From Schizochytrium sp. TIO01 (lineage: Eukaryota > Sar > Bigyra > Thraustochytrida > Thraustochytriidae), in assembly GCA_004764695.1 (NCBI GenBank), contig SMSO01000032.1, positions 6,096,668 through 6,160,667 on the forward strand: 64,000 nucleotides of DNA. The letters are read 5' to 3'. The position numbers and the translations under genes are program-made. Shown here one piece after another: positions 25,169 through 61,214 of the stretch. Below the pieces are notes generated by a model. That model searched no databases. It worked only from the letters and a program-made list of their open reading frames with translations, and was not told the origin of the DNA. Numbering within the stretch: the stretch's first letter is position 1; each line of letters starts with the position of its first letter.

Positions 25169-28105
25169 ATGGCCACAACTACGGCAAATCAGTCACAGCC
25201 ACGGCCACCCTCCGAGCCACGGAGGAGCTCCGCAAGTGCGCGGATTCGCTCAAGGCGAAGCAGTGCAGAGGTCCTCCCCTGTACCAACCTTGTCGACCTT
25301 GAGAATCAGGATTTGAGCAATACTAACTATTTGATGAACCGCTCAAATAACGGTCACCATTCATCTCATTACCAGCACCATCAGCAGCAGCAGGACGGGC
25401 TAAGGTTTTCGTGGTCCAAAGATGAAGGTAGAAATCAAAGTGACGCTAAATCAGGAGCAGACAAAAGTTTTGTGACCGATGAAAATAATCCTGAATTTTA
25501 CTCGCCTCGATACAATGATCGCGGACCAACATTATTGACCGTGAAAAGCTCATACGGTTCAAGTGATGCCATTTCTCTGCAACTTTCTCCTAAGTCATCT
25601 ATCGAAACACCTGTTGGTAGTGTTCCTAACAAGGCTCACCTTCGAATGAATTTGCGAACGAATTCTTCAAGCGAACTTTCCGCTTGTTCAGCAAAGGTGG
25701 ATGCTTCTGAAGACTACATCGCAGATACTCCGGCGCATAACGATGATAACGATAATGACGACGATTGCTCTGAGAGGTCCGAAGACGTGGTGGAAGCTTC
25801 TCCTCAGCCCATTTCCTCACAACGCATAGGTCGACTTAACTCCATGCATCCCGTTAGAATGTTGCGGCAAACTTCTGCACCAGATTGCATGAACCAAGGC
25901 CACATGGAACTGTCTCTAGATAGCCAAGGAGCCATCTCTCCACGATATCCTCAACCACCTGGTATGCCATTTGATCCAGTAAGCCTGAGATCCACTTTTG
26001 TCACATCTCCATCTCCAAGGAGCGGCGCTATACAGCGATCTCGTGTTTCTTCACAAAATTCCGTAAATCCGCGCTCAGACATGATGATTCGCCAACGAAC
26101 CCGATCCGGTGCCCTCCCTCATATGGATCGTACACAGAGCAGCTTGAATAGCGAGTCCTCCTTGGATGGCCTCTCAAGGTCCCCGAATTTCCCTGGTGCA
26201 TTTAACAACCTTCAGAGGATACGAAGCGAATCAATTGGTTCTCATGCTGACCAACAACTTCTCCCTACGTATCAGGCGGGGTCAACTGGGGCTTCGATGT
26301 CGCCATATTCCCCATTATCCAGAAGTCGCCCATCCTCTGGTCGTAGTGTCTCACAAAATCTGCCAGTTTTCTCTAAGGTATCTCCCGAAATGAATTATGA
26401 ACGCCATCCCGGAAGCCCAAACCCGTTCTCCAATAATGCCATGCAGCAGCAACAACAGAGCTTTGTGCGCCATCGCCGCAATAACTCTTCATCTAGCGCC
26501 TGGCAAAAAGACCGCCGCGGGAGTATCATGCATAGTCGCAGTCAAACGGTGACCAATCTTCCCCGTCCAAGCAACCTTGACGGGTTGGGTAGCGCCGACT
26601 CAAACTTGGGCAACAGGCAGCTTGGTCGTAGCTCAAGCTTCCGTTGCAACGGGGCAACTCCTTCCTCAGTGAATGGGATTTCAGCTGGATCACCAGATAC
26701 CATTATGTACTCATCTCGTGATAGCTCATCCTCGCAGGTATTTCGCAGCTCAACTCGACCTAGATTTCAATACGTGATGCAAAACTCGGACGAAACCGAA
26801 GCATCGACCGACTCTGACTTTGCTTACGACGCAGTGCCTCTAGAATTATCTCCTCGTAATGATGGGGCATCCAGGCGTCCAAGCAGGATTAATAACGACC
26901 CATTCGGACCAATGTCAAGATCACCAATGCGCGATTTTGACGAAGCTCTCCCTGGCGAAAATTTGTATATTAGAGCAGGTCCGAGGTCGCCTCGTGAAGG
27001 GGCGGCTCAACAAGATGCACCCGTCAGCCCTCGTCGTCCCTTGGAAGTTGCGCCTCCATCTCGGCAACGTTTGCGCAGATTCAACTCATCCAAAGAAATC
27101 CAACAAGTGAGTCAGGGTGCTGTGTCGGAGCAAAAGTACCTCGATGGACCTGACCAAAGTTCAGTAAACTCTGCACGTCCTAAAAGTGTGAGCTTTGCAG
27201 AGGCACATGATCCGAATGCCACAGCTGCTAGTAGCTCCTCTGCAGCAAACGACGCCCCGGCCGCACCATCAGCAGGTGATGACGGCTCAGATGAAAAAAC
27301 TTACAAGTTGGGTGCACTCCTTGGCTCTGGTACTTTTGGTGAAGTTTTTCGTGCACTTAACTTGGAAACTGGCTGCTACTTTGCTGTAAAAGTCATTTCT
27401 AAAATGAAAGACGCAAGTGAGGAAGAAGCCGCAAAGATTCATAGTGAAATTGCTGTCATGAAGGATCTACATCATCCAAATATTGTGGAGTATTTAGGAA
27501 GCCATATCAATGCAACAACAGGCGCATTGGAGATCTCTCTTGAACTTGTCACAGGTGGTTCGCTTCAGCAAATGTACAAAGAATTTGGCCCGATTCGTAT
27601 GAAACCACTGAAGCGTTATGCCCAAAATATGGTCAACGGCATTTCCTATTTACATTCCAAAGGCATTATCCATCGCGACATTAAGGCAGCGAATGTTTTG
27701 GTATCTGCTGAGGGCGTTGCTATGCTCGCAGATTTTGGTACATCTAAACAACTTGGTAATCTTACCTCTGACACTTTAAACAAATCCTTGGCTCAAGTGC
27801 GAGGCAGCGTGCCATGGATGAGCCCTGAAGTTGTTTGTCAGCGTGGAGCATCTTCCGCGTCCGACATTTGGTCTTTAGGATGCACAGTTCTTGAATGCTG
27901 TCAAGCTTGTGCTCCTTGGCATGGGATCATCAAGGATCAGGTGGCCGGTCTATGGACCATTGGTAATGCGAAGGAGCACCCTCCATTCCCTACCAATATT
28001 GAAAGTGAACTCAAATCCTTTTTAGAGAGCTGTCTTATGATTAATCCTGATGATCGCCTCTCAGCAAGTGAATTGCTAGAACACCCATTCTTAAAGAATG
28101 AGTGA
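25169..28105 (+). CDS. Protein kinase, MAPKKK (STE11/MEKK)-like, with long disordered N terminus
   Basis: 978 aa, one exon, ATG at 25169 in ACAATGG context. Residues 1-705 are Ser/Arg/Pro/Asn-rich, with many SP and RSxS sites, and are probably disordered and phosphorylated. The kinase domain fills about 711-975. The Gly loop is LLGSGTFGEVF; the ATP-binding Lys is about 741 in FAVKVIS. The catalytic HRDIKAANV has its Asp near 837, and the DFG Asp is near 855. The activation segment ends in GSVPWMSPEVV, and the C-lobe carries SDIWSLGCTVLE. The motifs HRDIKAANV, GS.PWMSPEV and DIWSLGCTV.E are those of MEKK/STE11 kinases, the top tier of MAP-kinase cascades. All catalytic residues are present, so activity is expected. 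The N terminus shows no recognisable regulatory domain (no SAM, RA or CRIB). Confidence 0.9.
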   Translation: MATTTANQSQPRPPSEPRRSSASARIRSRRSSAEVLPCTNLVDLENQDLSNTNYLMNRSNNGHHSSHYQHHQQQQDGLRFSWSKDEGRNQSDAKSGADKSFVTDENNPEFYSPRYNDRGPTLLTVKSSYGSSDAISLQLSPKSSIETPVGSVPNKAHLRMNLRTNSSSELSACSAKVDASEDYIADTPAHNDDNDNDDDCSERSEDVVEASPQPISSQRIGRLNSMHPVRMLRQTSAPDCMNQGHMELSLDSQGAISPRYPQPPGMPFDPVSLRSTFVTSPSPRSGAIQRSRVSSQNSVNPRSDMMIRQRTRSGALPHMDRTQSSLNSESSLDGLSRSPNFPGAFNNLQRIRSESIGSHADQQLLPTYQAGSTGASMSPYSPLSRSRPSSGRSVSQNLPVFSKVSPEMNYERHPGSPNPFSNNAMQQQQQSFVRHRRNNSSSSAWQKDRRGSIMHSRSQTVTNLPRPSNLDGLGSADSNLGNRQLGRSSSFRCNGATPSSVNGISAGSPDTIMYSSRDSSSSQVFRSSTRPRFQYVMQNSDETEASTDSDFAYDAVPLELSPRNDGASRRPSRINNDPFGPMSRSPMRDFDEALPGENLYIRAGPRSPREGAAQQDAPVSPRRPLEVAPPSRQRLRRFNSSKEIQQVSQGAVSEQKYLDGPDQSSVNSARPKSVSFAEAHDPNATAASSSSAANDAPAAPSAGDDGSDEKTYKLGALLGSGTFGEVFRALNLETGCYFAVKVISKMKDASEEEAAKIHSEIAVMKDLHHPNIVEYLGSHINATTGALEISLELVTGGSLQQMYKEFGPIRMKPLKRYAQNMVNGISYLHSKGIIHRDIKAANVLVSAEGVAMLADFGTSKQLGNLTSDTLNKSLAQVRGSVPWMSPEVVCQRGASSASDIWSLGCTVLECCQACAPWHGIIKDQVAGLWTIGNAKEHPPFPTNIESELKSFLESCLMINPDDRLSASELLEHPFLKNE

Positions 28106-29137: not shown

Positions 29138-31423
29138 ATGGCGGACTCTGCTTCTGTCGCTGCTGATGCAGCTCCCGTGACCGCTGATGCAGCTGCCCCG
29201 ACCCCATCGACGTCCACCACCGACAGCGTTGAGGAGCCTGACTTTGTGTGCGGTATTGATCTTGGTACTTTTGCTGCAACTGTTGCAAAGGTGTCCACAA
29301 AATCGCTTAAATCTGAATTGCTGCGCAACGAAATGAGCAACGAGCGAACCCCAATGACCATCACCTTTGCTGAGCGTGCTCGCTCATTCGGTGAGATGGC
29401 TGAGCAGCTCAAGGCGACTAAACGTGACCGCACCTTCACGAGCCTCATGAACCTCGTCGACGCTGCTCATGGTGGTTCTGATCTTGCATTCGGTCCTCTC
29501 GTGGGCCGTGTTGACGATGATTTCCGGCTCATTGTGAGCAGTTCCGAAGGTGAAGACCGCAAGCTTCGTCCCGAAGAGGTCCTTGGCATGCTTCTCCGTC
29601 GCCTTGCTCGCTACCGTGGTGTCAATGAGCCCGCCCCTGCAGATGGTCACACAGATCCTCATACGCCCACCCATCCTGTAGCAGTCTCAGTGCCTGACAG
29701 TTTCTCGTTGGCTCATCGTCAAGCTGTTCGAGATGCTGCAAAGATCGGTGGCGTTGATCTTCGTCGCATTGTTAACCACACCGATGCTGCAATTATGGAC
29801 TATGTCTCTAGGCGTAGTGCTGAGCAACTCAGCGAGGGCGTGAATGTGATTGTGGACGTGGGACACTCATACGCCTCGGCAGTGGTTTTCAAGTGCGATG
29901 GCAAGAAGGTCACCAAACTCGCCTCCAAGTGCATTGCAAATGCCGGAGGGTCTGTTGTGGATAATGCACTCTTTGATGCACTTAATGAGGACTGTAAAAC
30001 TCGCAAGGGCCAGGGTGTTACACGTAACAGTAAGGCCGGAATTCGCCTTATGACACAGGTGCGTAAACTCAAGGAGTCCTTGTCAGCGGCACCGGAGACT
30101 CGTATTAGCTGCGAGGCTCTTGTGAATGATGAGGATGTCAGCTTCACATTCTCACAAAGCCAACTGGAGGAAATTTCGGCACCGCTCAAAACTAAGATTG
30201 AGGATATGCTGCGTGAACTCTTGGATGAGATCGCGGATGAAGAGGACCGCAAGAAGATCACCACTGTTGAGCTCATTGGCGGTGGTATGCGAATGCCGCT
30301 CGTCAAGCAGGCCATCTCTGACACATTTGGAGAGGGCGTCAATCTTGCCTACACTATGGACTCTATGGCTTCCATTGTAAACGGTACTGCCTTGTGCTGT
30401 GCTCAAGACTTTGAGCCCAAGTCTGCGGGTGTATTGCGCCCTGCCTTTGACAACCTCGCTCGAGGAGTCCCCAGCGAAGAAGAACTTGCTCTCGAAAACG
30501 CAGCCGAGCGTGTTGTGGCTGATACTCTGATGTCCGAGGCAGAACTTGCTGAAGCTATTGCTTTCGAGCACGAACTTCTTCGTCTCGATGCTGCTGAGAT
30601 AGCATTGCACACTGCTCGCAACAAGCTCGAGTCCAAGATTTTTGAGACCCGCTCTTTGGCTGATGGTCTCAAGCCTCACGGAGAACTCGTTGACCGTGCT
30701 GCCTGTAACACTGTTCTGGACGATTTTGAAAACTGGCTTTGGGATGCTTCAGAGGACGCCACTGTTGAGAGCTACGAGGCCAAACTGAAGGAACTCGATG
30801 AGGCATTGGACCAGCCTATGGCTGCTTACTGGGCGAAGATCAAGGAGGAGCGTGAGCGTTCAGATCGTGAACTTCAGGAGCAGGAGACACTGGCTGCCGC
30901 AGAACTCGCTGCCAGTGGAGGAAAGGACGATCACGACCAGCGTAAACTCAAGAAACCTGAGCGTATGCGCAAGGTCAAGCTCAACAAGGACGAGGGTACA
31001 CAACTTTTCAAGGATGGAAACATTGATGCTGCAAAGTTGCGTTACATTCGTGCTCTTCAACATACTGAAAAGTTTTTTGATCTTGGGCCAGATGACGAGG
31101 AAGAGGTCAAGCAAATTAAGCTCTCCCTCCACCTTAACCTCGCACAGTGCTGCATTAAGCTTGAGGACTGGGCAGAGACCATCAAGGAGGCAAACAATGC
31201 TCTTGAGCTGGATGCGAACTCCACAAAGGCTCTTTTCCGTTTAGCCTTTGCTCAAGAAAAGACCAAGGAGTTCACCTCCGCTAAGAAAAACCTGACCCGT
31301 GCTATTAAGATTGCACCTGAGGCTGAGCAGAAGCCTTTGAATGCTCTTTTGAACCGGGTTAACGTGCAGATCCAGCGTGAAGATGCTAAGCGCGCGATGA
31401 TGGCGAAGCGCATGTTTGGCTAA
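29138..31423 (+). CDS. Hsp110/Hsp70-like nucleotide-binding domain and lid fused to a TPR domain; no substrate-binding beta-sandwich
   Basis: 761 aa from the ATG at 29138 (AAAATGGCG). Residues about 38-425 are an actin/Hsp70-fold ATPase domain: GIDLGTF at the start, VPDSFSLAHRQAVRDAA, IVDVGHSYASAVVF and LIGGGMRMPLVKQ. The DVGHS form and the divergent first loop resemble Hsp110 more than Hsp70. A spacer of only about 35 residues leads to helices like the Hsp110 lid (about 461-570: MSEAELAEAI, ARNKLESKIFETR, NWLWDASEDAT). The beta-sandwich of roughly 120 residues that should lie between them is absent. Residues about 613-740 form three TPRs (GTQLFKDGNIDAAKLRYIRA, LNLAQCC, KALFRLAFAQ). Four of the five carboxylate-clamp positions are kept (Lys, Asn, Lys, Arg), with Thr at the first Asn. 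Predicted cytosolic Hsp70/Hsp90 co-chaperone, possibly a nucleotide-exchange factor docking on the EEVD tail. There is no EEVD of its own. Confidence 0.85.
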   Translation: MADSASVAADAAPVTADAAAPTPSTSTTDSVEEPDFVCGIDLGTFAATVAKVSTKSLKSELLRNEMSNERTPMTITFAERARSFGEMAEQLKATKRDRTFTSLMNLVDAAHGGSDLAFGPLVGRVDDDFRLIVSSSEGEDRKLRPEEVLGMLLRRLARYRGVNEPAPADGHTDPHTPTHPVAVSVPDSFSLAHRQAVRDAAKIGGVDLRRIVNHTDAAIMDYVSRRSAEQLSEGVNVIVDVGHSYASAVVFKCDGKKVTKLASKCIANAGGSVVDNALFDALNEDCKTRKGQGVTRNSKAGIRLMTQVRKLKESLSAAPETRISCEALVNDEDVSFTFSQSQLEEISAPLKTKIEDMLRELLDEIADEEDRKKITTVELIGGGMRMPLVKQAISDTFGEGVNLAYTMDSMASIVNGTALCCAQDFEPKSAGVLRPAFDNLARGVPSEEELALENAAERVVADTLMSEAELAEAIAFEHELLRLDAAEIALHTARNKLESKIFETRSLADGLKPHGELVDRAACNTVLDDFENWLWDASEDATVESYEAKLKELDEALDQPMAAYWAKIKEERERSDRELQEQETLAAAELAASGGKDDHDQRKLKKPERMRKVKLNKDEGTQLFKDGNIDAAKLRYIRALQHTEKFFDLGPDDEEEVKQIKLSLHLNLAQCCIKLEDWAETIKEANNALELDANSTKALFRLAFAQEKTKEFTSAKKNLTRAIKIAPEAEQKPLNALLNRVNVQIQREDAKRAMMAKRMFG

Positions 31424-32134: not shown

Positions 32135-34402
32135 TTACTCCTCTAGCCCAAAATCCCGAGCAATCATCTTTTGCGCGATGGCATGGTACCGCGACCGGTT
32201 CTCCTTAAATGTATCGAGCGCAGTAGCTTTTCCTTTGGGTCCAGCCTGGAAAAGGGCGCGATACAGAGGGCGAACAAATTTCATGCGGCCCTGCTCCAGA
32301 AGGAAGCGCACCACCATCCCAAAGCGGCGTTCATCACGTGTCTTCAAACATAAAAGACACCAACGAAAGAGAACCTCGCTATTGCGCGTTGAGGAAAAAT
32401 TGTACCACTTGTCAACAGCATCAATGAGCTCGGTTGTAATGAGTTCATCATCTGCATCAAGAAGGAGTTGCACGAAAGCAATAAGCTGGTCTGCACTCCA
32501 CGAAGTCAAATGCTTGGACGACCAGCTCGGTGGACTACGCTTATCCAGCCAATGGGCCGCAGCTTGAGACACTGCATCAATGAGAGAAGTATCAAGGGGA
32601 GGTTCCCAGTCCGGCATACCAGGTGCATGAACCCATTTGTCCCAGTCAATAGTGTTTAATGTAGCTTCCGGAAGTTTCTTGTACTTTCCAAAGTATTCAA
32701 GAAAGAATGTCTTAAAATCAGTCCATGAAACCGTGCCATACTGGAATCGTAGGATATAGGCTTTGAGGAAGGCTTCAAAGAGCTCCGGGCCACCCACTAG
32801 GTCCTCCAAATACAACAAGAATGTTGCACCCTTTTCGTAGGGAACCATCGAAAAGGCATTGTCCGGGTCTTCGTCTTCCAAAGGGACATGCAGACGAGTA
32901 AAGTCATGATCTTTGCCAAAGAGTTCAACAGAATCCTTAAGCCTGTGCCAGCCCGCTTGTTGCTTCAGTGAGGCAATTCCTGATCCATAGATACGCTGAA
33001 TAATTCTTCGTTCAATAAAGACCGTAAAACCCTCATTAAGCCAAAAGTCCTGCCACGTTGCGTTAGTTACAAGATTACCAGACCAACTGTGAGCAATCTC
33101 ATGAGCGATAATGTTACCCAAAGACCGGTCGCCTGCCAGCAAGGTGGGTGTTACGAACGTGAGCGTCGGGTTTTCCATGCCGCCGTAAGGAAATGACGGC
33201 GGGAGCATAAGCAGATCATAGCGCCCCCACACGTAGGGACCACAAATGCTCTCGGCGGTCTTGAGAAACTTTTCAGTCTCAGCAAACTCGTAGGCACCAA
33301 GGTCAACAACTGAAGGCTCGGCCCATACACGCGTACGGGGACCAATATCGCGGGATTCAAGGTCCCCCACAGCTAATGCTACCAGGTATGCCGGGACAGG
33401 AACCTCTTGCTTGAAAGTATAGGACTTGCGATCCCCGCTTGACGATGTGGGTGCTCCATTGCTGCTCCCATCCGAAGTTGCGATAGCACCCATGAGGGCT
33501 ACAAGTGGATCTGGAACGGTAATCCGTGCGTCATATGTGCATTTAACAGCCGGGGCATCCTGGCAAGGGATCATGGAACGGCAGTGGATGGGCTGGTTCT
33601 GCGTGAAGAGATATGGATGGACACGACCAGCAGTCTGTTCAGGAGGTAACCATTGAACGGCTGAGCAAGCCTCCCCAGGAGCTGTCTCGTAGAGAATCTC
33701 TACCTGAACGTCAGTTCCTGCCTTACGCGGGCTACCCGGGAGGTTGATACGCAAAGCAGTGCCAAAGGCCTTGTGTTTATCACCGAAAGAGTACTCTGCA
33801 TTTTGAAAGCTACGAGCGCTGTTGAGAACTCGTACACCAGTTACTGTGAGTGATGAAGTGTCCAGGACAAGCTCTGAGGTGCCGTCGCGGCGGATAGCGG
33901 CGTGAACTACGACTGTTCCCTGGAGAACACGGCGTTGAAAGTCTACATCGAGGTCTAAAGACATATGGGTCACAGCACACGAGTCAAAATTCGCAAACGA
34001 GGTGGGTTCACGGATGTCTTTTGAGATGGGGACACGAACGGCGCGATGCACTGCTGTCAGGCAGCCTTCATGACTGCAAGATTTTTGCGAACCGGGCATG
34101 GTTGAGCCCTGTATTGAGCATCCTGATCCAGAAGTGCCAGCTCCTGGATCTGAAGGCGATGCCGTGCCACCAGAATTCATACCTGCAGCATCCCCATACC
34201 CAATAGAATTACGGTTTCCATGGGAACTGCCTGAGGAAGAGCTATCAGTGGAATGTTGCTGTGCAAGACGCTGAGATTTAAGGTTTTGCTGGCGACGCTG
34301 AATAGCCCAGAGAACACCAAGGGCTGCAGCTGATGTTACCAACACTGCGCCCAAAGTCACTGCCACTGTGGAAGACTTAATAGACATTGAAGACTTCGAC
34401 AT
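32135..34402 (-). CDS. M1-family zinc aminopeptidase, leukotriene A4 hydrolase-like, membrane-anchored
   Basis: 755 aa, ATG at 34402. Residues 14-34 form one hydrophobic helix followed by Arg/Gln-rich sequence, that is, a signal anchor. A Ser/Gly-rich linker runs to about residue 115. The M1 catalytic unit follows: substrate-binding GGMEN at 407-411, zinc motif HEIAH at 434-438 with the third ligand in NEGFT (Glu457), then an alpha-helical C-terminal domain as in the LTA4H/RNPEP branch. These enzymes trim N-terminal residues from peptides, and some also hydrolyse leukotriene A4. LTA4H itself is cytosolic and about 610 aa, so the extra 115-120 residues with an anchor are unusual and predict a membrane-bound enzyme. 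All metal-binding residues are present. Which epoxide-hydrolase residues are kept cannot be judged by eye. Confidence 0.9.
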   Translation of the reverse strand: MSKSSMSIKSSTVAVTLGAVLVTSAAALGVLWAIQRRQQNLKSQRLAQQHSTDSSSSGSSHGNRNSIGYGDAAGMNSGGTASPSDPGAGTSGSGCSIQGSTMPGSQKSCSHEGCLTAVHRAVRVPISKDIREPTSFANFDSCAVTHMSLDLDVDFQRRVLQGTVVVHAAIRRDGTSELVLDTSSLTVTGVRVLNSARSFQNAEYSFGDKHKAFGTALRINLPGSPRKAGTDVQVEILYETAPGEACSAVQWLPPEQTAGRVHPYLFTQNQPIHCRSMIPCQDAPAVKCTYDARITVPDPLVALMGAIATSDGSSNGAPTSSSGDRKSYTFKQEVPVPAYLVALAVGDLESRDIGPRTRVWAEPSVVDLGAYEFAETEKFLKTAESICGPYVWGRYDLLMLPPSFPYGGMENPTLTFVTPTLLAGDRSLGNIIAHEIAHSWSGNLVTNATWQDFWLNEGFTVFIERRIIQRIYGSGIASLKQQAGWHRLKDSVELFGKDHDFTRLHVPLEDEDPDNAFSMVPYEKGATFLLYLEDLVGGPELFEAFLKAYILRFQYGTVSWTDFKTFFLEYFGKYKKLPEATLNTIDWDKWVHAPGMPDWEPPLDTSLIDAVSQAAAHWLDKRSPPSWSSKHLTSWSADQLIAFVQLLLDADDELITTELIDAVDKWYNFSSTRNSEVLFRWCLLCLKTRDERRFGMVVRFLLEQGRMKFVRPLYRALFQAGPKGKATALDTFKENRSRYHAIAQKMIARDFGLEE

Positions 34403-48038: not shown

Positions 48039-51000
48039 TTACACCTGAGGCCACTTGGCAATAGACAGTAGTTCGAGCCAAGGAAGAACCTCATGTCCGC
48101 CACTTGTGTACCATGTGGCAATCTGCTCAAAAGTAATACCAGACGAGTCCTCGTCCAGGCCAACATCAGCAAAAACACGATCTGCAATCTCTGCAACAGC
48201 ATCATCAACAACCTTCCACACTTCACCAGCAGGCCTGCGGCATGCCTCGTCGTTTAATGCAAGCAAGAAAGTTAGAAAGCTCGCCAGATACCTACGAAAT
48301 ACCGGTACAGTTAGCTTGCCAGTCCTTGTGGGATCAAAACGGTCAAAGGCGTGCGCAAGCTTCTCACTCTTTGAGCCCTTTGAAAGGACCGTGAAACCAC
48401 ATGCAAAGTCTACTAAAGGTACCTGTTTGCTTGAAGTGCGGTCAAAGGCAGAAAAGATGCTGGAAAGGAGCACTGAGAACATACGTTTATCCTCGCCCGA
48501 TAGGCTCGAGCCAGGGATCAATTGGCGAATAACCTGATGGAATGCCAGTCGGCTAAGAACAAGTGGGTCGGAGTCCGATTCGGCCACACGCTCACCAGCA
48601 AATGCCAATGCTTTGTACAACTCACCAGGCAAACGCTGGTCCAAGTCAGAAATTGCAAGCAAGCGGTGTAACTGGGCCACATCATGACGATGAAACTCCA
48701 TCTCATCACCCTCACTTGTGAGAACAAAGCGGAATATGATATCTTCCTCATCATCTTGAATACTGACTTCTCCTAGTTCCCGTGCAATACGCTCCGCGCC
48801 ACTGTCAACACGACGGCCTCGGCCATCTCCACTTGGGGGGTAAGAAGATGTACTACTGCTCCGGCTCGCCCGGTTTACGTACTCGAGAGCATGCTGCCAC
48901 TTTCGCAAGTCAAGAAGCTCAAGCCATGCCATGTGCCGGTACCCACCCTCCGTGTACCACTCACAGAACTCCTCAAAGCTGATTGCTCCAGGGCATGAGC
49001 GACGTGACGATGTCTGTGTGAGAATAGCCCCTGCTAAAAGTACAGTGGCTTCTGAAAGTTGCTCGAAATCTGCGACATCCTCTTGTGATATAGGACCAGG
49101 GTGCTTACCGCTACAGGCTGGTAAAGCGCGAAGACCCATCAGAAAGGCCAATAGAAACCCATGCAGTTGAGCACGAGTCAAAGTGCCATCTTGATCTTCG
49201 TCAAAGCTAGAAAAAGCAAGGCTAAACTTATCGCTTTTGCGTCCTGCTGTGAAGAGCAGCAATCCACAAAAGATCGCATTCATGCGTACAACACCTCGCC
49301 CAATTGAAGCCTGGGTTTCAAAAAGACCAAATATTGTGACAAAGGTACGCATCAAACGTTGGCGCTGTCGACTAGATTGTTCGGGGGCACGGTCCAAAAG
49401 GTCGTTTATCATGGCCATGTAGCTCGACATATTTAGAACGGGCAGTCCTCCCTTTGTTACGGAGTATTGTAATAAATGCGCGTGAAGGCTTTCAGCAGTC
49501 ATCAGCCGAAGGCCAGACACGTCTGCCACCTCTCGAACAAAGTAGGCGTCACGACGCGAAATGCCTAATGATGTGTCTACGTCTCCGCCAACGTTAAAAC
49601 GCAGCAAGATTTCGTCAGAGAGACGCATCCACTCTTCATCCTCAGCGGCGGAACCTACTGTTGGGTGGTGCATAAACGATGATCCCCCAAGCGGCCATTT
49701 GGCCAGGTCATACAGCTCAACCCAGGGTATGCGCTCGCATCCACCTCCTTCAGCATACCATTGAGCAAAATCGTCAAAGGAAACTTTCACCCCGTGGCCC
49801 ACACGAGGCGGCTCTGCGGAACGAAGTTTGATGAAGCTGACAATACTCGCAACAGCTTCGCTCGCCGCTGCTGCTGAAATTGCCTGAACCTTGTTCATCG
49901 TTTCGCGTTTCGCCACCGCCGTCAAACCCTGGAGACCCAATAGGAGAGCTGTTAAGAAATGAGTCAGCTCAGTTGCTGAAAGAGTACCATCGCGGTCTCG
50001 ATCAAATAGTGCGAACCCTACCGCTAGTTTATCGCTCTTATTGCCCTGTGCTAAAAGGCTCAAGCCACAGGCGACCTGGTCTGTAGCGGCGCGGTCTGTT
50101 TCTTTAGTCTCATACAGCTTGAAAAACTGTCGGAGCCTCTTCTCTGCTTCATCAAAGTCAGGTGCGTCTTCATTTGGCGCATCTGAGGTGTCCCGAATCG
50201 AGCGGACAATTTCTCGAACGGCCACGAGAAAGGAGTTGCAATCAATGGTAATATCCGAGCCGCGTGATGCGCGAAGCAGGGCAGCATGAATCTCATCTGC
50301 ACCGGCGGAATCGAGTCGCGTGAAGCGCAAGATATCGTCCAAAGAGTCTACATCCGTCGTATTGAGCGCCAAGGAAGCCTTGGCCGCCTCGCCCGGAGAA
50401 TTACCTGCGCGCAAAGGCACAAGAAACACTAGCCGTTCCCCACTGCTACCAGTCTGGGAAGACCCACCAACAGCTTCGCCCTTATCGCTACCGTAGCTTC
50501 CCGGAGCTGCCTTATTAACAAGTGGCCACTTACTAAGATCCAGCAGCTCAAGCCAGGGCACAATGTCCAGGCCTACAAGGTTGTACCACTCGCCAAACTC
50601 CTCAAAGGTAACCTTGTCCTTGTCTGCCTTGCCAAAGTGCTGGTAGACTGCACGCGCGACCTCTACGCTGGTACGATCAATGGTTGAGTAGATCTCTTCG
50701 GCGTCAAGTTTGGGCGCATCCTTCTGGAGGGCAAACAGAAAAGTAAGGAAAGAGCGCAAGTACCGCACAAGCCCGATCGAGTCCACAGCACCTTCGCCGT
50801 CTGTGTCAAACAAGGAGAATGCTAAAGAGAGTTTTTGCGACTTGCTTCCACTAGCCAAGAGCATGAAGCCACTGAGGAACTCATCTGTCGGCACACGACC
50901 TTCACTCGCCCTATCAAAGGCGTAAAAGAAGGTGGAAAACGTGTATGATAAGTACCGCTGTTCCTGCTTCCCAAGGAGTTCACCTGGAACAAGCTCGCGA

Positions 51001-52697
51001 ATGCATTGATCGAAGTTATCTTTCGTCAGGTCAGGGCCATCTTGTGTTGCTACTGCATTCAAAAATAGACTATACATTTCCTCCGCGCCAGTGTCGGAGA
51101 TGCGCGTGGTAGAGATTATAAGGTCTACCAACTCAGCATCAATAGGCATCAAAACCAATTCACGATCCTCAAAAAGTTTGAAATGAAACAGAGGTTGGGG
51201 TTCAGCGCCATCTGCATCCTTTCCTGCTGTAACTTTATCAGCACCATTGCTGTCATCCTCCTCCTCGTCATCATCAGCGAGGTCCACGGCATCATTCTCG
51301 TCACCAGACTCATCATAGTCGTGTCCATCGCTCGCAAGCTGGTGTTCTTCGGCATCGTCGGAATCTGGCATATCAAAGCTGTGATTCAGGTTTTGTGAAG
51401 GCATCGTCCGTACAACGGCAGGTTTAGGGATGATCTTCACATGTCGCCGAGGCCGCCGGTGCAGCGGTGAAATCATTGCGCTTCCTTCACTCATGAGTGT
51501 CACGATCTCAGGCGGTGGCATGGAGGATGTTTCGCCGAAAGGAGCGAGCTTGGACACCCAGCGCAGCGCATCTGCTATATGAATGTCAGAGTTATACAAT
51601 TCGACCCATGGCATGAGGTTTTGGCCAACAGAGCAATACCATTGCCAGAATAACTGCAAAGTGATGTTTTCTTCACCGATGCCAGGCACAGTATACAATG
51701 CAGCCTCGCAGGTTTCGTCCACCAGGCCGTACACATATCTCGAAGGAAGGCGCGACATACCGTCATTGAACGAGAGCGCAAACGTGAGTAAAGACCTGAA
51801 GAGGTGCACGAGCTGGCTTGCACGAAGAGCACCGTCTTGGTCCGTATCAAAAAGCTGGAACATGTAGGCAAACTTAACATCCTCTTCACTCGAAGTCAGG
51901 AGGATGAGACCACAGAGTAGCTCGCGAACAGGAACGAGCTCCTCGCCGAAGACATCAAGCGCGTAGAAGGCCCTCAGCAAAAGCCCACGCATGTGCTGGC
52001 ATTGTGCAGCGCTTCCAACACCTGCAGGACAAATATGGTCTTCGACAACCTCCATGAAGAGATCCCGTGGCATGAGTTCCTGTCCCTCCAAAGAAAATAG
52101 ATCCATAAGGGCGGCGGCGTTGAGTGAAAGACTTGCAAGCGCTTGTCTAAGTAGCCTCACGGAGACGAGTTCTCGCTGGCTCACCAAAACAACTTGGCTG
52201 CCCACCAGAGCGTACCTGAGCGACCTCCGCTTTCCTGCACTTGGCGTCACCGCCCTGCTTCCAGGAACTCCTCTTTGAGTTCCATTCTTTGATTTGACTA
52301 AGTTCGAAGATCTTGATGAGGCCGGAAGCGCCGAAGATCCCGGCTTTGAAGAAGAAGGCAACTTCGATGACGATGACTCAGAAGAGGCAGACGCCTTTGC
52401 AGCAAGGTCTTCGCGGTATTTTTGAGCCTGAAGCATGTCATTATACTCCTCTTCGGCTGGAGAAAGCTTCACGAGGAGGTCAAGATGGCGTCCTCCAAAG
52501 GCAGTGGCGCCCATGAGGCCAACGAGGGTAATCGGGTAAATGGTTGCACCCATGGAGAAACCTACAACATTGCTTTCAGCTACACCGAAGGCAGCAGCAC
52601 AATGCTGCACGAGACGAGCAGGGTCCCCATGCAACGGGAGCGTAGCCTCTCGACCATCGAACCTGCACACGAGGTACCCCGACGCAAGGCCGGCCAT
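48039..52697 (-). CDS. Giant protein of five EF-hand modules
   Basis: 1552 aa, ATG at 52697, one exon. Residues 1-80 look like a small ubiquitin-like or PB1-like fold (VCRFDGREATLPLHG...), then a Ser-rich linker, then five copies of a module of about 270 residues. Each module has a calmodulin-like EF-hand loop: Phe at 283, 630, 898, 1165 and 1454, followed by DTDQDGALRASQ, DTDGEGAVDSIG, DRDRDGTLSATE, DEDQDGTLTRAQ and DPTRTGKLTVPV. About 70 residues later comes a WY...G..(I/L)PW.EL motif, mostly followed by KW. Only the third loop keeps the full ligand set including Glu at position 12; the fifth has lost most ligands. An acidic stretch lies near residues 440-490. The modules are diverged copies, so the duplication is old. 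I know no named family with this plan. A calcium-responsive scaffold is the natural inference, with mostly weak or lost calcium sites. Confidence 0.82.
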   Translation of the reverse strand: MAGLASGYLVCRFDGREATLPLHGDPARLVQHCAAAFGVAESNVVGFSMGATIYPITLVGLMGATAFGGRHLDLLVKLSPAEEEYNDMLQAQKYREDLAAKASASSESSSSKLPSSSKPGSSALPASSRSSNLVKSKNGTQRGVPGSRAVTPSAGKRRSLRYALVGSQVVLVSQRELVSVRLLRQALASLSLNAAALMDLFSLEGQELMPRDLFMEVVEDHICPAGVGSAAQCQHMRGLLLRAFYALDVFGEELVPVRELLCGLILLTSSEEDVKFAYMFQLFDTDQDGALRASQLVHLFRSLLTFALSFNDGMSRLPSRYVYGLVDETCEAALYTVPGIGEENITLQLFWQWYCSVGQNLMPWVELYNSDIHIADALRWVSKLAPFGETSSMPPPEIVTLMSEGSAMISPLHRRPRRHVKIIPKPAVVRTMPSQNLNHSFDMPDSDDAEEHQLASDGHDYDESGDENDAVDLADDDEEEDDSNGADKVTAGKDADGAEPQPLFHFKLFEDRELVLMPIDAELVDLIISTTRISDTGAEEMYSLFLNAVATQDGPDLTKDNFDQCIRELVPGELLGKQEQRYLSYTFSTFFYAFDRASEGRVPTDEFLSGFMLLASGSKSQKLSLAFSLFDTDGEGAVDSIGLVRYLRSFLTFLFALQKDAPKLDAEEIYSTIDRTSVEVARAVYQHFGKADKDKVTFEEFGEWYNLVGLDIVPWLELLDLSKWPLVNKAAPGSYGSDKGEAVGGSSQTGSSGERLVFLVPLRAGNSPGEAAKASLALNTTDVDSLDDILRFTRLDSAGADEIHAALLRASRGSDITIDCNSFLVAVREIVRSIRDTSDAPNEDAPDFDEAEKRLRQFFKLYETKETDRAATDQVACGLSLLAQGNKSDKLAVGFALFDRDRDGTLSATELTHFLTALLLGLQGLTAVAKRETMNKVQAISAAAASEAVASIVSFIKLRSAEPPRVGHGVKVSFDDFAQWYAEGGGCERIPWVELYDLAKWPLGGSSFMHHPTVGSAAEDEEWMRLSDEILLRFNVGGDVDTSLGISRRDAYFVREVADVSGLRLMTAESLHAHLLQYSVTKGGLPVLNMSSYMAMINDLLDRAPEQSSRQRQRLMRTFVTIFGLFETQASIGRGVVRMNAIFCGLLLFTAGRKSDKFSLAFSSFDEDQDGTLTRAQLHGFLLAFLMGLRALPACSGKHPGPISQEDVADFEQLSEATVLLAGAILTQTSSRRSCPGAISFEEFCEWYTEGGYRHMAWLELLDLRKWQHALEYVNRASRSSSTSSYPPSGDGRGRRVDSGAERIARELGEVSIQDDEEDIIFRFVLTSEGDEMEFHRHDVAQLHRLLAISDLDQRLPGELYKALAFAGERVAESDSDPLVLSRLAFHQVIRQLIPGSSLSGEDKRMFSVLLSSIFSAFDRTSSKQVPLVDFACGFTVLSKGSKSEKLAHAFDRFDPTRTGKLTVPVFRRYLASFLTFLLALNDEACRRPAGEVWKVVDDAVAEIADRVFADVGLDEDSSGITFEQIATWYTSGGHEVLPWLELLSIAKWPQV

Positions 52698-54688: not shown

Positions 54689-57600
54689 ATGTCGCGAGGG
54701 CGGCACACAATGGAGCGCACGCGACCGCTTGTGGAGTGGTCTCCACACGACTCGAGCCACTTTGTGCTAGCTTCCTCCGTGGATCTTAAGCTGTTCGATT
54801 CCGCTGCTCTCAACGTCAACGGAGACGCTGAAGCTTCTAGCGTCCTTCTTGCCAGCAGCTCCATCGGCCCCTCTATCTCATCATCATCTGCAGTACCTCG
54901 CCATGCACATAACTCTAGTTCCGGCAACTCTTCGACATCAGCATTTCACCTTTCGTCAAAACCAAGTGGCAATGGTGAATATTCAATCTCGAGCAGCGCA
55001 AACCATGCTGTGAATAACGTCACTACCAGTGCCTCTCAGAGTGGAGTATACAGCTCTGGTATGAGAACACAATTCGCCCCCGGTATGAACTCCAGCTCAA
55101 CCGGAATGGCGCAGTTGCACCTGGGTCCTGCAGCGAACTTGGAGCATTCCAGATCCAACGCAAGCCATTGGAAACGTAAAAACAACCTCATTGCTGTTAG
55201 GTCCATGTCCAGGCCCATTCGCTGCGTGAGCTGGTACCCTGGTGCAGACGACCCACTGCTCGTGGCTACCGGCGATAGCACAGGCCATGTGCGACTTGTG
55301 AGTTTTCAGGAGAATCGCAATCTAGAATCAAATGGCGTAGTCATGGAGTTCGGGAACAACCGGAATCTTAATGCTTTGTCCTGGAACCCTCAGCACACGA
55401 ACATCATTGCCGTTGGTATGGACTTTACACGCCTCGTAAACAGCATTGCGTTCTGGGATATCAACCGCATAGCCAAGACGAATGGAGGTAATAACTCCAA
55501 CAGGAACAGCCAGCAAAATGTGGAACAGCAACCGCCAGAGCAGCAGCAGCAACAACAACAGAAAGGCACTGGAAGTTCAGATGGTCAGAAAAGTGGAACT
55601 GAGGAAAATCCTAATCCGAATTTACCGCACCCAATCATGGAAACAGGACAAATGGAAGGAGCACTCGCGTTAGCATGGGCCCCAAACAACCCGAATTGCC
55701 TTGCAGTTGGCACTCAATTCAAGTGGATGCGGCTCTATGACATTCGTCTTGGCATGACAGAAGAACCCAATACAGCACATAGGAAGACACCACAGTCTGT
55801 GGTAGCCCACGCTAAAGCGGTCAAAGGTGTTGTCTTTGACCCTTGCAGGCCTCACTGTCTTGCAACTTTCTCGGACGACGGACTGATGAAAGCATGGGAC
55901 ACTCGCCGCTTAGACAACCCCGTGATTACTATCTACTCCCAATCAAAGAACACGAGTCAGATTTCATGGTCCCCTGTGCAGCCTGGCTTGTTAGCTAGCG
56001 TCAATATTGACGAGAAGTGTATTAGCCTCTATGATGTCCGTAGGGCCTACGATGTAGAGCACACTGTGAAGACTAGGTACACCGATGCTGAAATGGATTC
56101 TCCCCCTAGGAATGGACTCGGTGACAACCGTGAAGTCGATAGTGGAGGAGCCACTCCACGAGGAGATGTGAATGGACGTGCGGTAGTGAAAGAGGGCTCT
56201 TCTGATGACAGCGGGAATATAGCACGAGAGTTGAGTAACAGCTCAATGCCTGCTCAAACCACAATAGAGTTGCGAAAGCCAGACTTGCGCCGCTACACAA
56301 AGCATGCACCTGCAAGCTTTTGCTGGATCCCTGGTGCCAAGAACCAAAACTTCCGTCCGGAGGATTTGGTGCCAGGAGCCCAGGCCAAAGCTGGCCAGAC
56401 CTGCACTGATGAGTCCACCAACCGTGTCCTATTTGTTTCGTGGAGTGGCAACTACGTCGAGGATGTCTCCTTGCAGGACCCTCTTCCCCTGTCTGTATCT
56501 CCAACTTCCTCTGTGAGCTTCGGGAGCAGCCAAGGTATACGTAATCTCTCGTTCGCTGCGTATGATCCCTCTATGGTTCTGCGCAAGCGTGCCAAGCTCG
56601 GATACTCGATTGATGCAAATGCAAATGTCGCATTGCTTGATCAGACCGTGGCTGCTGCCAAACATCTTCTCCATGGACAATCACGTTCTGCAGTTGCTTC
56701 TGAAGAACATTTTGAGATGGTAGACCGTTTTGATACACGTGGATGCCTTGAAAACCTTTTGCGCTTGAGGGACATGTGGCGCTGGATTCTTCGAGCATCT
56801 AGTCTTATTGACCCTATGAGATCCAGAGGCCTTGTCGACTCAGGACTTCTTTTTGTCATTACTCAGCGCCCCGGCATTCAGGGAGATACACACATCGATG
56901 CGACTCTCAAACCTCCATTCTGTCTTTATCGTAGTAGCCAGCGAACCTTTGCGCTACATTTGTGCGGCTGGAGAGATTTTGGTGACGCAGATACAGAAAA
57001 CTCAAACAGCAAATCAGCTGCTCTGGAGGCCAACGAAGATGGCTCGCCTCTGAATCCTTTAGACTCTGATCGAGATTATCAACGCGCTGCAGCGTTGGCA
57101 GTGTTTGACTGCAACCTTCCACTCGCGGTTCACATCCTCCAAACAGAAGCCAGTTTGTTGCTCAAGGAAAAATCAGAGCGTCTTCGCTTTCTTCCGCGTA
57201 CAGATGGAACGGAGCAGGATGAAAATCTTATTGCAGATTTGCTGCAGCTTGTTGCAATGGCACTTGCTGGATACCCGAGCACAGAAAGCCAGACATCGAA
57301 ATTGTGGATTGATTCTTGTTGCGCACTGACCAAGAGACTTGGAAGATTTCCTATTCTCTGTGCAGCGCTTAAGTTTCTTATGGAAAACTTTGAGCGTCGC
57401 ATACTTAGGTCAAGCAATGCTGAAGCAACGTCTGACGGTAAGAAAACCATGTCATCAGGGTCAGACACCACAAGCACGTCTGTCGATAATGAAGCAAGCT
57501 CGAGCATTGACTCCATGAGTAGCGAGATAATTGATTTTCGGAGCAGCAGTGGGCCTGCTTTGGCAGGGATTCCAGAGAACGATCCTGTTGGTGAAACTGC

Positions 57601-58897
57601 TCCAAACAAAACACTAAATGCTGGAAGTCGTGCCAGTGCAGCTGGTGCTGGTGGAGATGACTATGATCCGTCAAAGCGTAGCTCAAATGAGACCGACAGT
57701 AAAGTGCCACATGAGGCCAAAGAAAAGGTGGCAGAACTCGAGTTTAGCTGTGTTTTGGGTGAACTCGCTATCCCTCTGACTGATAGAATCGCGTTTGCGT
57801 GTCGATTTTTACCGGACGCTTCATTGTACCCATTTCTTGAAGACAGTTGTTCCAATGCAATAGAGAACGGTCATCTTGATGGTATCATTCTTACTGGTTT
57901 GGGTTTTCTTGGCATGCGCCTCTTGGAGGCATACGTGAATCGCAGTGGTGATGTCCAATCTGCCGCCTTGGCCGTGTGCCACACCATTGCCTCAGAGCTC
58001 GGAAGCATTTCATTGCTCTCTGTACAACGTTGGATCACGTCTTACCGTGACTTGCTTAATGTATGGCGTCTCTGGCAAGAGCGGGCAAGATTTGACGTGC
58101 GATATGCTGCACGCGAGAGAAAACTGAAGCTCCATCGTGAGAAGGAGGTTGCCCCTGCAAGCCCAGCCTCTCCGCCTGCTCCTTCGGGTTCTAATCCACA
58201 CACCTATTCATTTGATTCTATCGAAGGTCGCATCTCTGAGCGAGTAAAGCATCCTCAACCGACCACAATTGCTGAAGACTCTGCCTACACCCCAGCAAGC
58301 ATGGTGAGACCGCGGGCTATTCAAGAATCTCAACTCTATGCTGTATGCACGAACTGTAAGGAATCCTTGCTACTCTCAAATATCCTTGGTGATCTACCGT
58401 CGCTGGGTGGATCATCCAGAGTAAATGATCGCAAACTTACCATTCCATGCTGCCCCCGCTGTAAGAAGCGCCTTTCATCATGCGCAGTTTGTGTGCTCCC
58501 GATGAGCTGCATTAACCCATACGCACAAATGGCAGGATCTTCGGCACGCGATCGTACTCGTGTTAGTCGAGTAATGGAAAAGGTTGCCAGACAATCCCAG
58601 CGAGCTGGTCAGCGTCGTCCCTTGAAGGGGGCTGATCCCAAGATGACTCGGCTCTTGCAAGCTGGGGGCGTTGATACAGAGTCGTCTCAGGGCTCGGTTA
58701 CAGACGCACCGCATTGTGTTACTGCTGGTGATCAACAGTTTCTTGCAGCAGGTACTTCACAGCCTTTTGGTCGATGGTTCTCCTGGTGCCTTCGCTGCCG
58801 CCATGGTGGACATGCTGCCTGTATGACCGAATGGTTCAAGTCACACGTGCGTTGTCCTGTGGCCGATTGCGATTGCCCGTGTACATCTTTACGCTAA
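54689..58897 (+). CDS. MIOS/Sea4-like GATOR2 subunit (WD40 plus C-terminal zinc module)
   Basis: 1402 aa, ATG at 54689. MIOS is part of GATOR2 (yeast SEACAT), which relays amino-acid sufficiency to TORC1 at the lysosome or vacuole. It starts TRPLVEWSPHDSSHFVLAS, the typical first strand of MIOS WD40. Further WD blades begin near residues 176 (IRCVSWYPGADDPLLVA), 226, 324, 377 and 424. A helical solenoid follows from about 640. The C terminus holds the RING-like zinc ribbon: C..C near 1219, CCPRCKKRLSSCAVC near 1253, and CLRCRHGGHAACMTEWFKSH to CPVADCDCPC at about 1364-1398. All of it keeps Cys/His spacing as in human MIOS. Human MIOS is 875 aa; the extra length is low-complexity insertion, at about 35-160 (Ser/Asn), 265-310 (Gln), 470-530 and 905-1010. 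Confidence 0.9.
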   Translation: MSRGRHTMERTRPLVEWSPHDSSHFVLASSVDLKLFDSAALNVNGDAEASSVLLASSSIGPSISSSSAVPRHAHNSSSGNSSTSAFHLSSKPSGNGEYSISSSANHAVNNVTTSASQSGVYSSGMRTQFAPGMNSSSTGMAQLHLGPAANLEHSRSNASHWKRKNNLIAVRSMSRPIRCVSWYPGADDPLLVATGDSTGHVRLVSFQENRNLESNGVVMEFGNNRNLNALSWNPQHTNIIAVGMDFTRLVNSIAFWDINRIAKTNGGNNSNRNSQQNVEQQPPEQQQQQQQKGTGSSDGQKSGTEENPNPNLPHPIMETGQMEGALALAWAPNNPNCLAVGTQFKWMRLYDIRLGMTEEPNTAHRKTPQSVVAHAKAVKGVVFDPCRPHCLATFSDDGLMKAWDTRRLDNPVITIYSQSKNTSQISWSPVQPGLLASVNIDEKCISLYDVRRAYDVEHTVKTRYTDAEMDSPPRNGLGDNREVDSGGATPRGDVNGRAVVKEGSSDDSGNIARELSNSSMPAQTTIELRKPDLRRYTKHAPASFCWIPGAKNQNFRPEDLVPGAQAKAGQTCTDESTNRVLFVSWSGNYVEDVSLQDPLPLSVSPTSSVSFGSSQGIRNLSFAAYDPSMVLRKRAKLGYSIDANANVALLDQTVAAAKHLLHGQSRSAVASEEHFEMVDRFDTRGCLENLLRLRDMWRWILRASSLIDPMRSRGLVDSGLLFVITQRPGIQGDTHIDATLKPPFCLYRSSQRTFALHLCGWRDFGDADTENSNSKSAALEANEDGSPLNPLDSDRDYQRAAALAVFDCNLPLAVHILQTEASLLLKEKSERLRFLPRTDGTEQDENLIADLLQLVAMALAGYPSTESQTSKLWIDSCCALTKRLGRFPILCAALKFLMENFERRILRSSNAEATSDGKKTMSSGSDTTSTSVDNEASSSIDSMSSEIIDFRSSSGPALAGIPENDPVGETAPNKTLNAGSRASAAGAGGDDYDPSKRSSNETDSKVPHEAKEKVAELEFSCVLGELAIPLTDRIAFACRFLPDASLYPFLEDSCSNAIENGHLDGIILTGLGFLGMRLLEAYVNRSGDVQSAALAVCHTIASELGSISLLSVQRWITSYRDLLNVWRLWQERARFDVRYAARERKLKLHREKEVAPASPASPPAPSGSNPHTYSFDSIEGRISERVKHPQPTTIAEDSAYTPASMVRPRAIQESQLYAVCTNCKESLLLSNILGDLPSLGGSSRVNDRKLTIPCCPRCKKRLSSCAVCVLPMSCINPYAQMAGSSARDRTRVSRVMEKVARQSQRAGQRRPLKGADPKMTRLLQAGGVDTESSQGSVTDAPHCVTAGDQQFLAAGTSQPFGRWFSWCLRCRHGGHAACMTEWFKSHVRCPVADCDCPCTSLR

Positions 58898-59555: not shown

Positions 59556-60968
59556 TCAATGAGCCCGGTAGGCCGGGGGTCGAGAATTGAGTTGTGGAAC
59601 CTGCCGTGTTTGCATTTGCATTTTTTGTTGATGTTCTTGGATTTTTTGTGCGAGGGCTTTTGCCATGAATTGTTTTCTAGCGAGTTTGCGGACCTCCTTC
59701 AAGAATGTGGTAAGATCAATAATGTCATTTGATAGGGCACGATCCAGATGATAAAGGGTGTCGTCAATCGCATTGATTTCCGCAACGCAGTCGAAAAGTT
59801 GCCGAGAGAGACCATCTGCCGGTACGATTGCTTCGTCAAGATTGATCTGGGCCATTGCACTCGCATGATCTGTATCCTCATTGTTCCCGTACTCTGCAAG
59901 CCAAGTTTGGAGCTGCGTTTCCTTCATATCAAGTTCTTCAATAGTTGCTTCGAGAGTCTTTTTCTGCTCTTCAAGTTTATGCATGCCCTCCTCGAGGGTT
60001 TTCTGACCTTCTTCAAGTTTGTTTTGTGTACGCATTTCTTCGCCAAGTTCTTTCTTCATGCGCTCACGAAACTTATTGAATTCGGACTGAAGCTTGATTT
60101 CCAGAGCTTGACGAGCAGACTTCAGAGCATTCTGGTTCCTCGTCTCTAAGCGCACTCGTTCCTCGTCACCGGTATTTTGTACGTTCGATGCTAAAGAGGG
60201 TCGCATAGAAATTGGAGAAGGGCTGCTATGGTTGCCAGTTAGGCCTGAAACTGGATAAGGTGGCGGAGGAGGGGTGTTGCTATTCCCTCTGGGGTAAGGG
60301 GTGGAGGACGATGAGTACGGTGATGGAGGTGGATACGGTGTTGAAGAAGGATATGGCATTGAAGGAGGGTAGAGTCCATTGGAACGAGGATAGGGGCTGG
60401 CCGAAAAGTTGCTGTATGGTGGCGGCGGGGGTGTTGACGAAGGTGATGAAATAGAAGGTGTAGAGGACGGAGCTCCACGTGCATGCACAGGAGTTATTTT
60501 ACCAAATTCATCTTTACACACAGAAATTACCTTGGAGAGATTGGTTCGTGACGAATGCCATTCATTCAATACAGGAAGAGAAACTTGGCCATCCCGACTG
60601 ACATTAGGATGCCCTGGGGTAATCTCCATTCCCGTAGTAGGTGTCACATATACAATTGGTGCTGAGTCTGGGTAGGCTTTGGACACCCAGAAGCACATGG
60701 GAATATTGTATTGTGTTCCATGGTAAAAGATTGGCACCGTGCCTTTGAGTTCAAGGAGCGTATTTGATTCCCCTGTGTTGCTGTAAAATACCTCCAGACT
60801 CGGCTTTAATGACGGACATTCCATACATGCATCGGACGCATCCTTTAATACCCGCGCCATGTACTCAGGCCTGTACGTATCGCAACCTGCTAGAAGGTGC
60901 TCCAAAGTCGATCGGACACCACCGGAGCCCGGGCCGCTCTGATGACTTGCATGCATTGATGGATACAT
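59556..60968 (-). CDS. TSG101/Vps23-like ESCRT-I subunit
   Basis: 470 aa from the ATG at 60968; the frame extends eight codons further to a TTG only. ESCRT-I sorts ubiquitinated cargo into multivesicular bodies. N-terminal UEV domain (about 30-150): LKGTVPIFYHGTQYNIPMCF, YPDSAPIVYVTPT and LPVLNEWHSS align with TSG101 and, like it, lack the E2 catalytic cysteine. Then comes a Pro/Ser/Tyr-rich linker with repeated STPYP (about 170-265), a coiled coil (about 280-370, KLEEGQKTLEEGMHKLEEQK), and the steadiness box (about 380-450, ADGLSRQLFDCVAEINAIDD, then LDRALSNDIIDLTTFLKEVR) that binds Vps28/Vps37. Three PPxY motifs are present, two in the linker (PPPPPY) and one at the very end (RPPAYRAH). Confidence 0.93.
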   Translation of the reverse strand: MYPSMHASHQSGPGSGGVRSTLEHLLAGCDTYRPEYMARVLKDASDACMECPSLKPSLEVFYSNTGESNTLLELKGTVPIFYHGTQYNIPMCFWVSKAYPDSAPIVYVTPTTGMEITPGHPNVSRDGQVSLPVLNEWHSSRTNLSKVISVCKDEFGKITPVHARGAPSSTPSISSPSSTPPPPPYSNFSASPYPRSNGLYPPSMPYPSSTPYPPPSPYSSSSTPYPRGNSNTPPPPPYPVSGLTGNHSSPSPISMRPSLASNVQNTGDEERVRLETRNQNALKSARQALEIKLQSEFNKFRERMKKELGEEMRTQNKLEEGQKTLEEGMHKLEEQKKTLEATIEELDMKETQLQTWLAEYGNNEDTDHASAMAQINLDEAIVPADGLSRQLFDCVAEINAIDDTLYHLDRALSNDIIDLTTFLKEVRKLARKQFMAKALAQKIQEHQQKMQMQTRQVPQLNSRPPAYRAH

Positions 60969-61214
60969 GGTGTCCACAGATAGAAGGATCAATTGGCGAG
61001 AAAATCAGAATTTAAAAATCAGCAAAGCAGCCTCCCTAGGAAAATCAATGTTTTCAATATGCTCTTCAATCGTCGCGGCTTCACTGTGTGCACAATTACA
61101 GATTGTTCTGCTCGGAAGGTTCTGCGCAGAGCAAGCAAGGTCTCTTTCTAATTGGAAATCTGAGAATAACTCCAAATTAATGCAATCTCTAGGAATCGAA
61201 GAGCGCAGCTGCAA

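Follow-up and report, generated by a model that had tools for sequence, protein, structure and literature searches.

A conserved stramenopile family of Hsp110-like proteins with a fused TPR domain and no beta-sandwich

Hsp110 chaperones possess a beta-sandwich between the ATPase domain (NBD) and the lid, and Sse1, the yeast Hsp110, requires bound ATP for Hsp70 binding. Truncated Hsp70s, in which the NBD is accompanied by a substrate-binding half with part of it missing, are exemplified by HSPA13/STCH. The plant T2 truncated Hsp70s share this feature with the 761-residue protein described here, but the T2 lineage retains the beta part and has no lid, which is the reverse case, and a TPR fusion is not seen there in the available text of the report (PMC10687569). 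In studies on Sse1 mutants, Sse1-2 (N572/E575) displays 20% Hsp70 binding and 5% exchange (PMC11479587), exchange is impaired in both Sse1-2 and Sse1-8 (E554, M557, L558; PMC4664246), and the hydrolysis-defective Sse1-K69M keeps in vivo disaggregation whereas Hsp70-contact mutants do not (PMC5440654). Eukaryotic exchange factors have been grouped into four categories, with a TPR clamp mentioned for none in the part of the review at hand (PMC9346034).

TPR-clamp co-chaperones of Hsp70/Hsp90 include HOP/STI1 and CHIP. The Hsp90 tail in the FKBP51-Hsp90 peptide structure contacts Lys272, Asn322, Lys329, Lys352 and Arg356 (PMC5660230), and the FKBP8 TPR selects Hsp90 and does not bind intact Hsp70 (PMC5344419). 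The gene analyzed here combines features of these systems and belongs to a conserved stramenopile-wide family that is probably Hsp110-derived, TPR-fused and free of the beta-sandwich.

Gene structure and the place of the beta-sandwich

The gene lies at 29138..31423 on the plus strand of the window (the whole 64,000-nucleotide stretch of DNA that was analyzed), as do all of its features given below, and encodes 761 residues plus the stop codon. A sequence-only reading had proposed an Hsp110-like chaperone with the beta-sandwich missing and a TPR clamp at the C-terminus, acting as a tethered exchange factor that no longer holds substrate, and had suggested structure prediction with superposition on Sse1, a domain search, a search of related genomes and a look at transcripts for an exon restoring the sandwich. 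The protein from transcript collections (P0002) is equal in length and differs solely by S466A; as it is transcript-derived, no exon is missing from the gene and none is restored. That an ordinary Hsp110/Hsp70 gene was distorted by a mis-read exon, by chimaera formation or by faulty assembly is vanishingly improbable given the frame open over all 761 residues, the match to the transcript-derived protein and the short spacing found in all 103 aligned relatives (see below), and we consider such an artefact or missed exon ruled out.

The NBD (residues 36-423; 29243..30406) was delimited by Pfam, the AlphaFold2 model and alignment columns. Pfam places HSP70 at residues 37-422, corresponding to profile positions 1-373 of 599, and the last NBD helix of the model runs from 412 to 423, in keeping with the end near 425 noted earlier. 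The place of the beta-sandwich (residues 424-466; 30407..30535), defined by the model and the profile match to Sse1, holds only two short helices (435-439 and 447-454); after the strand at 402-404 the model contains no strand of at least 3 residues and one lone bridge residue near 442. The lid helices (residues 467-592; 30536..30913), which also correspond to a second stretch of the profile match to Sse1 (53.3 bits), are packed in the model by the NBD as in Hsp110. As modelled, the interval between NBD and lid is thus ~43 residues and carries no beta-sandwich; the gap perceived in the sequence-only reading is real, but its figures (lid from ~461, ~35 residues) have to be revised.

The same deficit pertains to the family as a whole. 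The family profile has 9 positions where the Sse1 chain has 143 residues, and the spacing corresponding to G416-N495 is 24-117 residues in 103/103 members vs. 164-220 in the mtHsp70, BiP, Hsp70 and Hsp110 of the same genome. In a Pfam scan of 13 family proteins, including the two rows with the longest gap (the window protein, P0003-P0006, P0052, P0094, P0072, P0063, P0013, P0069, P0079 and P0014), the best HSP70 stretch never extended beyond position 377 of 599. A hidden beta-sandwich is ruled out by the model for the 761-residue protein, and none was found in the 13 scanned proteins. In contrast to Hsp110, the family has no beta-sandwich between NBD and lid as judged by model, profile and 103 members.

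The flanking genes encode an M1 aminopeptidase of the leukotriene-A4-hydrolase type (32135-34402, minus strand) and a protein kinase whose N-terminal part is long (25169-28105, plus strand), and we saw no tie to chaperones in either. Elsewhere in the window are a MIOS-like protein that matches WD40, alpha-solenoid and zinc-ribbon domains (54689-58897, plus strand), a protein resembling TSG101/Vps23 that has both a UEV and a Vps23 core domain (59556-60992, minus strand) and a 1552-residue ORF with several EF-hand family matches (48039-52697, minus strand).

Hsp110 kinship and distribution of the family

A profile of 56 members matched Sse1 at 335.9 bits, ahead of the Hsp105 NBD at 272.4 bits and of the top-scoring Hsp70 at 265.8 bits, the Sse1 match covering NBD and lid alone. 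Sse1 was also the top match to the 761-residue model in Foldseek and in VIA-align, where the superposition spans model residues 36-575 and the lead over Hsp70s is only ~1 Z unit. By NBD identity, 88/103 members were nearest to Sse1 or to the Hsp110 of the host genome and 15/103 to other rows, with medians of 24-27% to all compared rows. An NBD tree was built from 35 rows, 26 from the family and 9 others. The nine Hsp70/Hsp110 rows stood together on one side of a branch (100/99), and another split (98/94) separated Grp170, Hsp70, BiP, mtHsp70 and two DnaK from Hsp110 plus the family; with a midpoint root, long branches and two rows flagged as long, this tree would at most place the family on the Hsp110 side. 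In Sse1 and the host Hsp110 the second phosphate loop carries a GH signature, the His of which was found in 89/103 members. The likeness to Sse1 thus comprises NBD, lid, overall arrangement of the model, the GH signature and counterparts of N572, E575 and E554, whereas the family differs from it in lacking the beta-sandwich and the catalytic Lys and in carrying an added TPR domain.

The same architecture recurs widely among relatives: 137 members were collected and, after 34 shorter rows were dropped, 103 full-length ones were aligned. A search with residues 560-761 returned 70 proteins, all of which (70/70) carry a precomputed HSP70 domain; when the lid-TPR portion of the weighted consensus served as query, 225 proteins matched, and 118 of the 120 listed have that domain, the exceptions being P0080 and P0092 (397 and 468 residues). 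The closest named relative, at 73% identity, is from Hondaea fermentalgiana, a thraustochytrid (Labyrinthulomycetes), which points to a thraustochytrid host. Among the matches listed, the named sources were a thraustochytrid, oomycetes (including Phytophthora, Pythium, Peronospora, Bremia, Aphanomyces and Thraustotheca), Blastocystis, Ochromonadaceae, Chrysoparadoxa and diatoms. Hondaea, Chrysoparadoxa, Blastocystis, Thraustotheca and Seminavis are Stramenopiles in the NCBI taxonomy, and we take the other named sources to be so as well; no source outside this group occurred among the named matches (120 of 225 listed, many rows without a taxon). As Bigyra, oomycetes and ochrophytes all have the gene, it was probably already carried by the last common ancestor of stramenopiles. 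Members listed bear source names such as Hsp70-like, heat shock protein, TPR protein or hypothetical, and we found no named family with the NBD-lid-TPR architecture, in line with the earlier remark on this domain order; nor did titles or abstract openings reveal a paper on it in the literature covered, which was mostly outside subscription journals. A role in cilia, considered because central-pair Hsp70 chains were among the structure matches, was dropped given that Blastocystis and pennate diatoms, which have no normal flagella, carry the family.

TPR clamp, Hsp70-facing residues and nucleotide pocket

The TPR domain (residues 606-727; 30953..31318) was delimited by Pfam (TPRs at 664-728), PDB matches, the model and the FKBP52 alignment, confirming its C-terminal position; it is followed in the model by a C-terminal helix (residues 728-760; 31319..31417). 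The highest PDB score overall belonged to an engineered TPR repeat protein, and among natural proteins those matching best along its full length were FKBP52 (8e-16), Cyp40 (4e-14) and FKBP51 (5e-12), with SPAG1 (6e-13) over one part and CHIP (4e-5) and STI1 (6e-4) weaker. Judged from these alignments, the TPR domain is of the FKBP/Cyp40 type. The isolated domain predicted without alignment reached a pLDDT of only 63 and was left out. The likeness to the large immunophilins (FKBP51, FKBP52, Cyp40) includes the C-terminal helix and the five tail contacts, but the 761-residue protein has an Hsp110-like NBD and lid N-terminally and no Pfam match to an FKBP or cyclophilin isomerase domain (E up to 1). 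HOP/STI1 and CHIP, likewise TPR-clamp co-chaperones, have less similar TPRs, and the DP (STI1) and U-box domains had no Pfam match in the protein (15 families reported). Another TPR relative in the host genome, a 482-residue ORF (L014), appears by eye to comprise an FKBP domain, TPR and a cyclophilin domain.

The counterparts of the FKBP51 tail contacts, transferred via the FKBP52 alignment with FKBP52 numbers taken as two higher, are K617, N667, K674, K697 and R701, kept in 103, 103, 102, 103 and 102 of 103 members, respectively. As 18/122 TPR columns count as invariant (no more than one deviating member), the chance that all five would be among them is 4e-5 (1e-4 for polar columns only), values that are indicative since the contact set was chosen after the family alignment was known. 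The Lys, Asn, Lys and Arg named in the sequence-only reading are indeed kept beyond chance (K617, N667 and K697 in 103/103, R701 in 102/103); including T621, four of its five positions are invariant (P = 0.0016). Position 621 is Asn in 77, Thr in 25 and Ser in 1 of 103 members, and Thr at this first-Asn position is no defect, as FKBP52 has Thr there too. Preceding the TPR domain is the [DE]DHDxR[KR]L linker motif of the family alignment (residues 597-604; 30926..30949), with D598, D600, R602, L604 and R609 showing at most one exception in 103 members and low model confidence at 594-601 (pLDDT <50); it may serve for docking or may cap the TPR domain. The protein ends in KRMFG, not EEVD. The C-terminus is short and conserved (residues 753-761; 31394-31420), with KAFA in 48/137 and KMFG in 44/137 members, and is presumably similar to the way FKBP/Cyp40 TPR domains end; we found nothing in the literature on a 'charge-Y' motif.

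In the lid, N495 and E498 (30620..30631) align with Sse1 N572 and E575 (3c7n numbering offset by 2, derived by hand from the alignment) and are kept in 103/103 members. This pair is not specific to exchange factors, however, as the host Hsp70 and BiP equally have Asn and Glu there. E477, the counterpart of Sse1 E554, is more specific, being Glu in 99/103 members and in the host Hsp110 vs. Ala in the host Hsp70, BiP and mtHsp70. The M557 position is Met in 59/103 and the L558 position Leu in 6/103, and the Sse1-3 pair is not kept (A280 position, Ala 4/103; N281 position, Asn 0/103; columns 317 and 318).

The NBD has lost its catalytic residues. Positions 104 and 214, which we take to be Lys71 and Glu175 in Hsc70 numbering, are Met and His in the 761-residue protein; across the family the Hsc70 K71/Sse1 K69 position is Lys in 0/103 members and Arg in 2/103, and the E175 position is Glu in 0/103. 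Asp at position 410, present in all six compared Hsp70/Hsp110 rows, is also found in 0/103. Several phosphate-side and nucleotide-pocket residues are lost, with variable phosphate-loop positions (44-46 and 244-247), and GG.R at 381-385 and S316 are retained. With catalytic Lys, Glu and the position-410 Asp gone, the family would be a pseudo-ATPase in which ATP hydrolysis is very unlikely. Loss of the catalytic Lys may be tolerable, as Sse1-K69M is still active in disaggregation in vivo (PMC5440654).

Possible partners and function

The host genome (64.1 Mb) encodes an 820-residue Hsp110 with a full-length HSP70 match (L004), a cytosolic-type Hsp70 ending in VEEVD (L002), BiP, Grp170 and mtHsp70, and three Hsp90-family proteins. 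The only Hsp90 gene without an evident targeting sequence (L009) ends in MESVD, read from DNA, vs. the usual MEEVD, a change that may affect TPR co-chaperones. There is one BAG match, and DP-domain matches occur in two ORFs, one of 609 residues; Fes1/HspBP1 had no match in this genome or in any control genome. That the family substitutes for canonical Hsp110 or HOP was rejected, given the 820-residue Hsp110 and the DP-domain ORFs. With a canonical Hsp110 alongside, the 761-residue protein would be an added specialised factor, probably a cytosolic Hsp70 co-chaperone. As for the tail preferred by the clamp, the TPR type points to Hsp90 and the intact VEEVD to Hsp70.

The protein is, by its features, neither an Hsp110, as it has no beta-sandwich, nor an immunophilin, as it has no isomerase domain, but it may work like the former and dock like the latter. 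We put at only slightly better than even (about 0.52) the reading that it is an Hsp110-derived exchange factor whose NBD and lid open Hsp70 while the TPR clamp stays on a chaperone tail. NBD and lid would form a rigid Hsp110-type body embracing the NBD of the partner Hsp70, which would be opened so that ADP leaves; the factor would work without hydrolysing ATP and, having no beta-sandwich, would not hold unfolded substrate in the usual way. Its TPR domain would bind a free tail of the -EEVD type on either Hsp70 or Hsp90. Exchange would then be tied by avidity to that same Hsp70 or, as suggested by a TPR of FKBP/Cyp40 type, to Hsp90, with Hsp70 releasing its client beside the receiving Hsp90. 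The Sse1-nearest NBD and lid, the counterparts of N572, E575 and E554, the FKBP51 contacts and the VEEVD of the host Hsp70 fit this exchange factor, which would also fit what the sequence-only reading had proposed. The anatomy of that reading (Hsp110-like, no beta-sandwich, TPR clamp) stands; its functional part is weakened by the unspecific N/E pair, the lost Sse1-3 pair and the MESVD tail of Hsp90, to which are added the lost pocket residues, given the need of Sse1 for bound ATP, and the small VIA-align lead of Sse1.

The main rival, which we judge unlikely, is a non-exchanging scaffold in which the pseudo-ATPase NBD and the lid bind Hsp70 without opening it, either as an adaptor bridging Hsp70 and Hsp90 via the TPR clamp or to hold Hsp70 inactive. 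Loss of catalytic and several nucleotide-pocket residues across the family, the Sse1-3 contacts not retained and the higher mean share of the commonest residue in linker and TPR (0.82 and 0.73) than in NBD and lid (0.60 and 0.58; 56 rows) would favor such a scaffold, but an entire NBD-lid unit retained together with the N/E pair would be superfluous for a mere docking piece. It is quite doubtful that the protein is instead an immunophilin-type Hsp90 co-chaperone without an Hsp70 role, its NBD-lid unit replacing the isomerase domains and binding a client or another partner: its TPR is nearest to FKBP52, Cyp40 and FKBP51 among natural PDB proteins and the FKBP8 TPR selects Hsp90, having failed to bind intact Hsp70 (PMC5344419), yet the host Hsp90 tail is MESVD and the NBD-lid unit is nearest to Sse1, a known Hsp70 partner.

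Returning to the exchange factor, we also entertain, as a rather unlikely extension, a stramenopile-ancestral form sitting on Hsp90 via its immunophilin-type TPR and coupling release of ADP and client to Hsp90 loading. If this Hsp90-docked form is true, it would add another type to the Hsp70 exchange factors of eukaryotes, an Hsp110 core cut down to its exchange clamp, and an exchange factor with a built-in chaperone-tail clamp would be, to our knowledge, the first known. The family constitutes a natural experiment on the purpose of Hsp110, with the beta-sandwich and the hydrolysis residues gone and the NBD-lid unit kept across stramenopiles, among them crop-damaging oomycetes and diatoms, and it makes the need of Hsp110 for substrate binding and an ATP cycle directly testable.
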